Positions 31,697 through 47,514 of a stretch of DNA of 64,000 nucleotides are shown piece by piece. Source of the DNA: Neobacillus vireti (GTDB lineage Bacteria > Bacillota > Bacilli > Bacillales > Cytobacillaceae). The notes under the pieces are model-generated. The model was not told the DNA's origin, did not search any database, and saw nothing but the letters and a program-made list of their open reading frames with translations. The translations under genes and the position numbers were made by a program. Position 1 is the first letter of the stretch. Each line of letters opens with the position of its first letter. The stretch is from the NCBI RefSeq assembly GCF_001026695.1, contig NZ_LDNB01000007.1, forward strand, positions 251,556-315,555. The letters are read 5' to 3'.

Positions 31697-31768
31697 GCGC
31701 TCGTGGTGCAACGGATAGCACGTAAGATTCCGGTTCTTAAAATGGGGGTTCGATTCCCTCCGAGCGCG
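31697..31768 (+). tRNA. tRNA-Arg (anticodon CCG)
   Basis: Cloverleaf with acceptor stem GCGCTCG / CGAGCGC and discriminator G. The D-arm region is TGGTGCAACGGATAGCA. The anticodon stem TAAGA / TCTTA encloses the loop TTCCGGT, giving anticodon CCG. The T-arm is GGGGG-TTCGATT-CCCTC. CCA is not encoded. It lies next to clpP, where B. subtilis also has a single Arg tRNA. Confidence 0.93.
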
Positions 31769-43649: not shown

Positions 43650-46025
43650 TTGGAAGATAACATTCAACAACATATTGACAAGCTATTGCAATATATGAGA
43701 GACGAGGCATATAAGCCATTAACTGTCCAAGAACTAGAAGAGGCATTTGGCATTCAGGACTCTAGTGACTTTAAGGAGTTTGTTAAAGCCCTTGTCCAAA
43801 TGGAAGAAAAGGGATTAGTCGTAAGAACCCGCAGTAACCGATACGGCCTGCCGCAAAAAATGAATTTAATCAGAGGAAAGCTAATCGGTCATGCAAAAGG
43901 GTTCGCGTTTGTCGTACCGGAAGAGCCCGGTATGGATGATATTTTTATTCCGCCAAATGAAACCAACACGGCGATGCACGGTGACACCGTGTTAGCGCGT
44001 GTTTCATCAGAAACCTCAGGATCTCGCCGTGAAGGAAGCATTATCCGCATTATTGAACGAGGCATACAGCAAATCGTAGGGACGTATGTGGAAAGCAAAA
44101 GTTTTGGTTTTGTGATTCCCGATGATAAAAAATTCGCCAGCGATGTGTTTATTCCCAAAAGCGCTTCAAAAGGGGCAGTGGAAGGGCATAAAGTTGTTGT
44201 TAAGCTCGTCACCTATCCCGAGGGGCGAAAGAGCGCCGAGGGCGAAGTCATCACTATACTCGGTCACAAAAACGATCCAGGTGTGGATATCCTGTCTGTC
44301 ATACATAAGCATGGCCTGCCAATGGCTTTTCCTGATGAGGTATTAAAGCAGGCAAATGAGGTGCCTGACACCATAGATGAAAGCGAACTAGTCAATCGCC
44401 GCGATCTTCGGAATGAAACGATTGTTACGATTGACGGTGCGGACGCCAAGGACCTTGATGATGCAGTAACGGTAACAAGGCTTGAGAACGGCAACTTCAA
44501 GCTTGGTGTTCATATCGCCGATGTCAGCTATTATGTAAAAGAAGGTACGCCAATCGACCTCGAGGCAGAGGAGCGGGCAACAAGTGTTTATTTAGTCGAC
44601 CGCGTGATTCCAATGATCCCGCACCGGCTATCGAACGGGATCTGTTCGTTAAATCCAAAAGTGGACCGGCTGACGCTTTCCTGTAATATGGAAATCACAC
44701 CGGAAGGCGCAGTTGTTTCCCATGAAATTTTTCAAAGTGTGATTAAGACAACTGAGCGGATGACCTATCATGATGTGAATCGAATTCTTGTTGATCAAGA
44801 TGAGGAAACACGGGCGCGATACGAACCGCTTGTACCGATGTTTGAAATGATGGAAGAATTGGCTGCCATTCTCCGCCATAAACGAATGAAGCGTGGAGCG
44901 ATTGACTTCGATTTCAAAGAATCAAAGGTTCTTGTCGATGAAGATGGAAAACCGACCGATGTTATCCTGCGTGAGCGTTCGGTGGCGGAGAAGCTAATCG
45001 AAGAATTTATGCTTGCTGCCAACGAGACAGTTGCAGAACATTTCCACTGGCTGGATGTTCCATTTATTTACCGCATTCACGAGGATCCAAAGGAAGATAA
45101 ACTGCGCCGCTTTTTCGAGTTTATTACCAACTTTGGTTACATTGTAAAAGGCACAGCTAATGACGTCCATCCTCGGGCCCTTCAGGAGATCATTGAAGAG
45201 GTTCAAGGCAAGCCGGAGGAAATGGTTGTTTCAAAGGTCATGCTGCGTTCGATGCAGCAAGCAAAATATGATCCGGAAAGTCTTGGCCACTTCGGCTTAT
45301 CGACGGAGTTCTATACCCATTTCACTTCGCCAATTCGCCGTTATCCGGACACCATCGTTCACCGTTTGATTCGGACATATTTGGTTGAAGGAAAGCTGGA
45401 TGAGACAACGCGGGAAAAATGGAATGCCCGCCTGCCTGAAATTGCAGACCATTCTTCCAAAATGGAGCGCCGGTCCGTGGATGCGGAACGGGAAACAGAT
45501 GATTTGAAGAAAGCGGAGTACATGGAGGACAAGGTTGGTGAGGAGTATGATGGAATTATCAGCTCAGTAACCAATTTTGGAATGTTTGTCGAGCTGCCAA
45601 ATACAATTGAAGGGCTTGTTCATGTCAGCTATATGACCGATGATTACTATCGCTATGATGAGCGCCATCTCGCTATGATTGGCGAGCGGACTGGGAATGT
45701 ATTCCGAATTGGCGATGAAATTACCATTCGGGTCGTTAAAGTCAATAAAGAAGAGCGTGCGATTGATTTTGAAATTGTCGGTATGAAGGGAACTCCTCAC
45801 AGAGAACGTTCCGCGACGCCAAAGGTTTTCAAAACGGGTAGTGATACCCACAAGCCTCGCCGCAATAAACAGGGAGATCGTAATCAAAACGGTAAACAAG
45901 GTAGAAATAAAGGCGGTAGCCAGAACGCAGAAAAAGAAGGCAGTCAAGGTAAAAAACCGAAGAAGAAACGCAAATTTTACGAAAATGTTCCTAAGTCAAA
46001 AAGTATAAAGCGGAAAAATAAATAA
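43650..46025 (+). CDS. rnr: Ribonuclease R
   Basis: 3'-5' exoribonuclease that degrades structured RNA and, with SmpB/tmRNA, clears stalled non-stop mRNA. The 791-aa product has an N-terminal HTH and cold-shock domains (about 1-220), the RNB catalytic domain with [14 protein letters not shown] (near 272-285), an S1 domain (about 630-715, [16 protein letters not shown]) and a Lys/Arg/Gly-rich tail ending KSIKRKNK. The start is a TTG after GGAGGGATTCGC. A dispersed 13-mer (44360-44372) is read as EVPDT in frame. Confidence 0.96.
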
Positions 46026-46093: not shown

Positions 46094-46117
46094 AAAGCCA
46101 TAGATGAGGTGAAACAT

Positions 46118-46585
46118 ATGCCAAAAGGTGTAGGAAAAGTAGTTGCGCAAAACAAAAAAGCCTATCATGACTATTTTATCGAAGAAACGTACGAAGCAGG
46201 TATCGTTCTTCAGGGGACAGAAATTAAGTCCATTCGCGCCGGAAAAGTGAATCTCAAGGATGCCTATGCGCGGATTCAAAACGGGGAAGCGATTCTTTTC
46301 GGGATGCACGTCAGCCCATATGAGCAGGGAAACATTTTTAATCACGATCCATTGAGAACGCGTAAGCTTTTGCTCCATAAACGGGAGATCAATAAGCTGC
46401 TAGGGGAAACGAAAGAAGCAGGTTATGCGCTTGTGCCCTTAAAACTTTATTTAAAAAATGGTTTCTGTAAGGTTTTAGTTGGTCTAGCAAAGGGTAAGAA
46501 AAACTATGATAAGCGTGAAGCCTTAAAGCAAAAAGAAGCAAAGCGTGAAATCGAACGTGCCTTCCGCGACCGTCAGAAGATGTAA
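46118..46585 (+). CDS. smpB: SsrA-binding protein SmpB
   Basis: Essential partner of tmRNA in trans-translation. It binds the tRNA-like domain and delivers it to stalled ribosomes. The 155-aa beta-barrel protein starts [20 protein letters not shown], with [21 protein letters not shown] (about 26-46) and the basic C-terminal tail [14 protein letters not shown] that occupies the mRNA channel. ATG at 46118 follows GATGAGGTG. Its RNA partner ssrA lies 144 bp downstream. Confidence 0.97.
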
Positions 46586-46619
46586 GGTGCCATAAAAAAC
46601 AACTTACAAATACTTACAA

Positions 46620-46647
46620 TTGAAATTTCCTGACAATGTGTTATAAT
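46620..46647 (+). promoter_or_regulatory. Promoter of ssrA
   Basis: TTGAAA (46620-46625), 16-bp spacer, consensus TATAAT (46642-46647). It predicts a start near 46654 and a leader of about 75 nt removed during 5' maturation. Confidence 0.8.
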
Positions 46648-46729
46648 AAGTTTGTCGCAGTGATAAGCGGCAGAAACTTTTGCTCAAGACATTGTTGAGC
46701 ATCCTAACGTCTAGTTTCATTTTTATAAT

Positions 46730-47365
46730 GGGGACGCTACGGATTCGACAGGGGTAGTTTGAGCTTAGGTTGCGAGTCGAGGGGATCGGCCTCGTTAAAA
46801 CGTCAAAGCCATAACTGGCAAAACTAACAACAACCTCGCTTTCGCAGCTTAATACTGCATAGCGGTTCCTCCCTCCATTGCCCATGTGGTAGGGTAAGGG
46901 ACTCACTCTAAGTGGGCTACGCCGGATTCCACCGCCTGAGGATGAAGGAAGAGAACAACCAGGCTAGCTGACCGGACGCCGGTCGATAGGCAGAAGGCTC
47001 AGTGAAACACCAATATATCGACTACACTCGTAGATGCTTAAGTGGCGATATCTTTGGACGCGGGTTCGATTAGTAATTAGTCGCCTTATGTGGTAACACA
47101 TAAGTGAAAATTCGGCTTTATCGGTGAAACCTAAGTCACTTTTAAAAAGTGATAAGGCAATGCCGAGCGGTATGTGGAGCAATCCAACAGCCGTGTATCG
47201 ACTTATAGGCTGCCATATTGAAATGGTAGTACTAGGATGCGAAATCCTGCCTAAAAGGCAAATATACATTTTGCATAATACGCCGAGAGGCCTGTTAAAT
47301 CAGGTCTAAGATATAGTCAGTGCCATGACGAAAGCATGGAAACGCACGTCCCGCCGTCTCCACCA
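46730..47365 (+). ncRNA. ssrA: tmRNA (SsrA), interrupted by an intron in the T-loop
   Basis: Transfer-messenger RNA for ribosome rescue. The acceptor stem GGGGACG (46730-46736) pairs with CGTCTCC, and CCA is encoded at the 3' end. The resume codon is GGC at 46817. The tag reading frame 46817-46852 encodes GKTNNNLAFAA and ends in TAA, so the full tag is A-GKTNNNLAFAA. The upstream ACTGGCAAAACTAAC context matches Bacillus tmRNAs. The T-arm is split: GCGGG-TTCGAT ends at 47070 and T-CCCGC resumes at 47349. Removing 47071-47348 gives a canonical 7-nt T-loop (TTCGATT) and a 358-nt RNA, close to the B. subtilis length. Confidence 0.96.
47071..47348 (+). other. Group I-like self-splicing intron in tmRNA
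   Basis: A 278-nt insertion with group I hallmarks. The base before the 5' junction is T (47070). Intron GTCG at 47080-47083 can pair with exon CGAT to form P1 with a G-U pair at the splice site. An 8-bp hairpin with GTAA tetraloop (47085-47104) looks like P2. TCGGC / GCCGA (from 47112 and 47161) fits P4. The S-element AAGATATAGTC at about 47308-47318 could pair with GACT near 47200 as P7. A GTGC...GCAC hairpin resembles P9, and the last base is G (47348). No homing endonuclease is encoded. The secondary structure is inferred by eye. Confidence 0.85.
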
Positions 47366-47379
47366 TACATAGGTGGATA

Positions 47380-47410
47380 ACAAGGCTAGCAGAGATGCTA
47401 GTCTTTTTTA
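47380..47410 (+). terminator. Rho-independent terminator of ssrA
   Basis: GGCTAGCA / TGCTAGTC-type stem (CTAGCA...TGCTAG) followed by TTTTTT, 15 nt after the tmRNA CCA. Confidence 0.85.
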
Positions 47411-47514
47411 TATCTTAAAAAAGGTATCTTCAAAAGCTATTTTCTTTTGAAGTAATCCTTGGTTATATATTCCGTTCCTTGGTGTTACATTCTAATTAAT
47501 TTTAATCAATAATC

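Follow-up and report, generated by a model that had tools for sequence, protein, structure and literature searches.

The window, by which we mean the whole 64,000-nt stretch of DNA analysed here, carries a split ssrA gene downstream of rnr and smpB (Table 1). Its two exons flank an insert that interrupts the T-loop behind TTCGAT. Run over the whole window, ARAGORN called no tmRNA, and on the unspliced ssrA stretch it reported nothing. From 46601-47070 joined to 47349-47420 it built a complete tmRNA: the T-stem, the 7-nt T-loop and the acceptor stem form, CCA is encoded, and the tRNA-like domain, the resume site and the tag frame are all present; the tag is given as GKTNNNLAFAA, which the program marks as not identified. 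Since a full tmRNA is found from the joined exons only, the initial annotation was right that removal of the insert restores the T-stem and the 7-nt T-loop, and the boundaries it gave for the 278-nt insert fit group I rules exactly, with a U preceding the insert and a G as its last base. On the split gene the RF00023 match stops at the insert and reaches 156.8 bits, compared with 205.9 and 206.5 bits on the continuous genes of two relatives (L160 and L093). The sole tRNA gene called in the window is a tRNA-Arg (ccg) at 31697-31768.

Table 1 Genes and signals around ssrA and the predicted helices of the insert, in window coordinates. Two-sided changes and paired cells refer to the intron loci of 37 relatives.
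Feature	Position	Strand	Content or partner	Basis or comparative result
rnr (RNase R-like)	43650..46025	+	upstream	Pfam RNB, 7.1e-117
smpB	46109..46585	+	partner protein gene, directly upstream of ssrA	Pfam PF01668, 1.1e-65
Promoter-like site	46620..46647	+	TTGAAA-16-TATAAT, upstream of ssrA	agreement with consensus only; 2 in the region against 2.4 expected
ssrA 5' exon	46730..47070	+	acceptor 5' strand, tag region, T-stem 5' strand, TTCGAT of T-loop	ARAGORN on joined exons; RF00023
P1	47067..47083	+	exon CGAU and intron UAG opposite guide UUAGUCG; wobble U47070-G at the splice site	
Group I intron, 278 nt	47071..47348	+	T-loop position 7, after the sixth loop nucleotide	no homing endonuclease gene found
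P2 hairpin	47085..47104	+	8 bp, GUAA loop	two-sided change in 4/8 pairs; 100% paired
P3, 5' strand	47111..47116	+	partner 47282-47287	two-sided change in 4/6 pairs; 100% paired
P4-P5-P5a domain	47121..47166	+		two-sided change in P4 1/5, P5 0/3, P5a 4/4 pairs
P6-P6a	47167..47194	+		two-sided change in 3/9 pairs; 100% paired
P7, 5' strand	47200..47207	+	one bulge; partner 47312-47318, the end of S-element AAGATATAGTC	
P7.1/P7.2/P7.2a extension	47210..47275	+	between P7 and P3'	two-sided change in 16/20 pairs
P8	47288..47307	+		two-sided change in 3/7 pairs
P9 and closing GUG/CAC	47320..47347	+	followed by the last G, 47348	97-100% of cells paired; no two-sided change
ssrA 3' exon	47349..47365	+	last T of T-loop, T-stem 3' strand, acceptor 3' strand, CCA	ARAGORN on joined exons
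Intrinsic-terminator-like hairpin	47382..47405	+	after ssrA	agreement with consensus only; 5 in the region against 0.9 expected

The insert had been proposed to be a group I intron that a covariance model should recognise, and RF00028 (Intron_gpI) bears this out in part: the model matches 47061-47339 from end to end (model positions 1-253) with an E-value of 1.2e-7 in a search of 711 nt, but at 36.5 bits the match lies under the gathering score of 50 bits, so that the insert goes unreported at that threshold. In a whole-genome search the E-value is 2.1e-7. Introns at the same tmRNA site in related genomes also stay below 50 bits (29.7-42.3 in six of the seven loci scored; the seventh, L006, is absent from the list at E 0.01). 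We regard the gathering score as the cut-off of a general model and not as a defining feature of the class. The locus is an annotation pitfall in that ARAGORN as run misses the tmRNA, RF00023 halts at the intron and RF00028 scores under its cut-off.

The host genome holds three other group I introns, which belong to the same ribozyme class as the ssrA intron and lie in other host genes; at 92.4, 85.8 and 70.3 bits on RF00028, all are over the cut-off. Two of them (L001 and L002 on contig C12; 92.4 and 85.8 bits) lie right after long flagellin-like open reading frames, and the third (L003 on contig C4; 70.3 bits) lies at the end of a ribonucleotide-reductase-like one, the frames being named by sequence reading. 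For Bacillus, flagellin and nrd introns have been described (PMC3984707).

A near full-length match to the intron occurs at the same place in 88 of 200 genomes, the host included. Two of these 88 loci (L009 and L073) did not fit our boundary pattern and were dropped, although L009 can still be read with a T before the intron and a G at its end. All 86 parsed introns, which are 268-290 nt long, have a U at -1 and a G as their last base, in agreement with the U before the 5' junction and the terminal G that had been noticed in the window's copy. An endonuclease had been thought absent from the insert, and none was found in a Pfam search of the open reading frames over it (61 aa on the plus strand and about 100 aa on the minus strand), which gave no match above cut-off (best E 0.18, 12.6 of 27 bits).

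Because the tmRNA introns score under the RF00028 cut-off, a secondary structure was drawn by hand on the window's intron and tested in relatives, using 37 of the 88 intron loci, 84 predicted pairs and 3105 cells (Table 1). Of these cells 96.4% are paired, and 36 of the 84 pairs show two-sided changes. Shuffles, a control that leaves relatedness in place, gave 19.5 such pairs on average (sd 2.1), and none of 500 reached 36. Sliding the partners by 1-3 columns left 6-14 pairs with a two-sided change; this control preserves relatedness, but a structure drawn on one row tends, simply through having been drawn there, to beat its slid versions in the share of cells paired. Two-sided changes speak for the predicted helices P2, P3, P5a, P6, P7.1, P7.2 and P8, and among the putative core helices P3-P8 and P4-P6 the covariation is weaker for P4 and P5.

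In P1, the splice-site U-G pair that had been suggested for the 5' junction occurs in all 37 rows; six of the seven pairs are nearly invariant, and the loop-side seventh is non-standard in 17 of 36. The S-element singled out in the initial annotation ends in the predicted 3' strand of P7. This helix is paired in 99.6% of cells and six of its seven pairs are invariant, so the alignment is compatible with P7 and carries no covariation signal for it. P7.1, P7.2 and P7.2a are paired in 90.3, 96.3 and 78.3% of cells, respectively, and an extension of this kind between P7 and P3' is what we take to be the mark of subgroup IA. The hand-drawn structure was made out without a P10 pairing to the 3' exon. 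The pair counts exclude chance, as does the recurrence of a nearly full-length match at this site in 88 of the 200 genomes, and this comparison among relatives settles the group I class at the level of sequence; the end-to-end RF00028 match agrees with it.

The low Rfam score would also fit a decayed, non-splicing sequence that breaks ssrA. We consider this very improbable: every drawn helix forms in the window's copy, the same form recurs in the 88 genomes, and real decay, as seen in three relatives described below (G029, G072 and G111), looks otherwise. Similarly, the insert might be cut by nucleases or retained, with a tmRNA in two pieces as the product, like that of permuted genes. Such two-piece molecules exist (PMC11915505), and pairing of the T-stem is open to the precursor as well, where RNAalifold pairs columns 3-7 with 328-332. 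Against this stand the group I splice-site letters, invariant in 86 of 86 introns, the covarying core helices and the standard, non-permuted order of the exons, and we hold such a fate to be highly unlikely as well.

The reading we prefer, and consider almost certain, is that the insert is an endonuclease-less group I intron at T-loop position 7 of ssrA that would be spliced out so that the T-arm closes. In the precursor, exon CGAU would pair with the intron guide AGUCG to form P1, setting U47070 in a U-G wobble. A guanosine held in P7 would attack after U47070, the freed exon U would then attack after G47348, and the joining of the exons would close the T-arm, leaving a mature tmRNA open to charging and to binding by SmpB and EF-Tu. 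Because the insert splits the T-loop, unspliced RNA should not form a normal T-arm. SmpB and EF-Tu need the tRNA-like domain of tmRNA, as is generally known, so rescue would depend on splicing.

Group I introns are known at this site, and tmRNA has reportedly been the subject of a 2002 paper whose title speaks of 'invasion by an intron'. PMC11915505 describes 883 unique intron-form tmRNA genes from 21 phyla, mainly Bacillota, all with the intron in the T-loop and most at position 7; endonuclease genes occur in 36 of the 883, and the mean intron length is 293 bp for 843 founding cases. Our position-7 numbering, counted after the sixth loop nucleotide, follows our reading of the Figure 2 legend of that paper. 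Compared with the position-7 form as described there, the window's intron shares the gene, the internucleotide site, the U at -1, the final G, a similar length, the usual lack of an endonuclease gene and the main occurrence in Bacillota, and we found no difference from these published particulars. A further likeness is to the group I intron of Clostridium botulinum tmRNA, which in the published description (PMC2729099) is 287 nt long, lies between a 5' exon of 338 and a 3' exon of 24 nt and has CGAU as its P1 substrate; host gene, size and P1 exon strand resemble those of the window's intron. The C. botulinum intron is called self-splicing in that description, a property that is predicted for the window's intron. 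The kind, site and mechanism of the ssrA intron are therefore already known.

Dependence on host proteins is common among group I introns, and the window's intron, too, might need one to splice in the cell. This is a variant of the preferred reading and shares in its probability; we think it rather unlikely, given that the C. botulinum tmRNA intron, much the same in length and likewise with CGAU as exon strand of P1, is reported to be self-splicing (PMC2729099), and that compact forms with the same helices are found throughout the kin examined.

The initial annotation had taken introns in tmRNA T-loops to be rare, a view that gives way before the 883 unique cases of the 2025 database and the distribution we observed: the intron is present in 103 of 193 family genomes, about half, and is thus common in its family. 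A scan of named genomes for the 3'-junction pattern returned 94 stretches, and the 80 listed come from Neobacillus species and other Bacillaceae-like genera. Among the 112 genomes counted as intron-less, this state was inspected base by base in 58 (59 sites, one genome being read twice) and for the others means that no match was found; in 17 of the 112 the tmRNA query, too, matched nothing.

In a comparison of ssrA among related genomes, as the initial annotation had proposed, the intron is present in some and absent in others, and close relatives differ in it repeatedly. On a tree of the rnr-smpB stretch from 52 Neobacillus genomes (35 with and 17 without the intron), at least 12 changes of state are needed, 12 of them forced by well-supported branches. 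Because this tree took in badly alignable spacer, it was repeated for 51 genomes on smpB only (12 changes, 8 forced) and on smpB plus rnr (12 changes, 9 forced); L021 was left out of both and L007 out of the second. These counts are blind to gain versus loss. Intron labels are weakly clustered on the trees, 34-42 of 500 shuffles being as low. The closest contrast is between tree sisters G059, which has the intron, and G032, which does not: only two of the 345 nt preceding the site differ between them, and the site in G032 is exactly empty. In the 59 intron-less sites the base at -1 is T in 25 and C in 34, a tally uncorrected for kinship, and in the parsed introns it is T.

Distances between introns follow those between hosts with a rho of 0.36, about as those of the 5' exon do (0.31; L009 left out). 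In AU tests, the pairing of L005 with L019, whose hosts are sisters, was rejected at p 0.041, and four other pairs were not rejected (p 0.17-0.54), nor was genus monophyly. We do not claim horizontal transfer of the window's intron, since one p of 0.041 among five pairs is weak.

Several tmRNA genes in the collection vary in other ways. In nine loci (L049, L055, L084, L085, L089, L097, L132, L142 and L146) the tmRNA ends in CTCCAT.., CTCCACTA or CTCCACTT.., so that CCA is not encoded. One genome (G089, contig C16) has two tmRNA-like genes, L118 and L135, about 0.86 Mb apart. Intron-less tmRNAs of several genera (L094, L107, L108, L119, L130, L136, L148 and L149) share a variant T-stem, GAGGG/CCCTC, and a C at -1, mostly with one identical terminator start, as if the 3' end had been swapped as a block.

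Across the 193 family genomes, 106 match the 3' end of the intron and 103 its 5' end, and the difference is made up of G029, G072 and G111, each of which holds a fossil of the intron. G111 (L093) has a continuous tmRNA end and terminator and, roughly 75 nt further along, about 200 nt of decayed intron that align with nt 76-272 of a congener's intron at 91% identity; a second 3' exon comes after them. G029 (L094) retains the last 40 nt of the intron with a 3' exon, some 110 nt beyond the end of its tmRNA. In G072 (L125 and L126), the last 41 nt and a 3' exon lie near the end of a different contig from the tmRNA, and this remnant is downstream of a second T-arm copy. The 5' end alone was matched in none of the 193 family genomes, so the 3' part is the survivor in all three fossils. 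Our search, an 80-nt query of the intron 3' end that sees only what it matches, thus found fossils in 3 of the 112 intron-less genomes (3 of 80 and 0 of 32, the empty 0/32 showing nothing by itself).

This arrangement resembles what the Islander abstract (PMC4383910) describes for genomic islands, where the island restores its tRNA or tmRNA target gene and the displaced fragment marks the island's far end. By analogy, the fossils may stem from island integration: an integrating element would supply a continuous tmRNA 3' end, and the 3' part of the old intron with its 3' exon would be pushed downstream as a displaced fragment and then decay. Illegitimate recombination with an intron-less copy would fit the fossils too. 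No integrase was recognised beside them among open reading frames of at least 130 codons, whose starts were read by eye. A query of the intron plus flanking sequence matched nothing in phage and plasmid records; with the whole split gene as query, two Enterococcus phage records matched at 67.4% over the 5' exon. A scan of viral contigs for the tmRNA 3' end returned 92 stretches, of which 38 contain a full tmRNA according to ARAGORN, 36 contain none and 18 are too near a contig end; many of the 36 look like tRNA genes that share the T-arm, and the scan is evidence neither for nor against att sites.

We see an evenly balanced case for a broader scheme in which islands or phages integrating into intron-split tmRNA genes cure them of the intron which, together with exact loss by other means and perhaps re-entry, would let the intron come and go without an endonuclease. 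No description of an island-type route of intron loss was found in searches of openly licensed papers, and what may be new in this work is the patchy history of the intron together with its fossils. In summary, the fossils point to a route of intron loss, and the near-identical tmRNA genes with and without the intron in Neobacillus form a natural pair for the cost of an intron in a rescue RNA.
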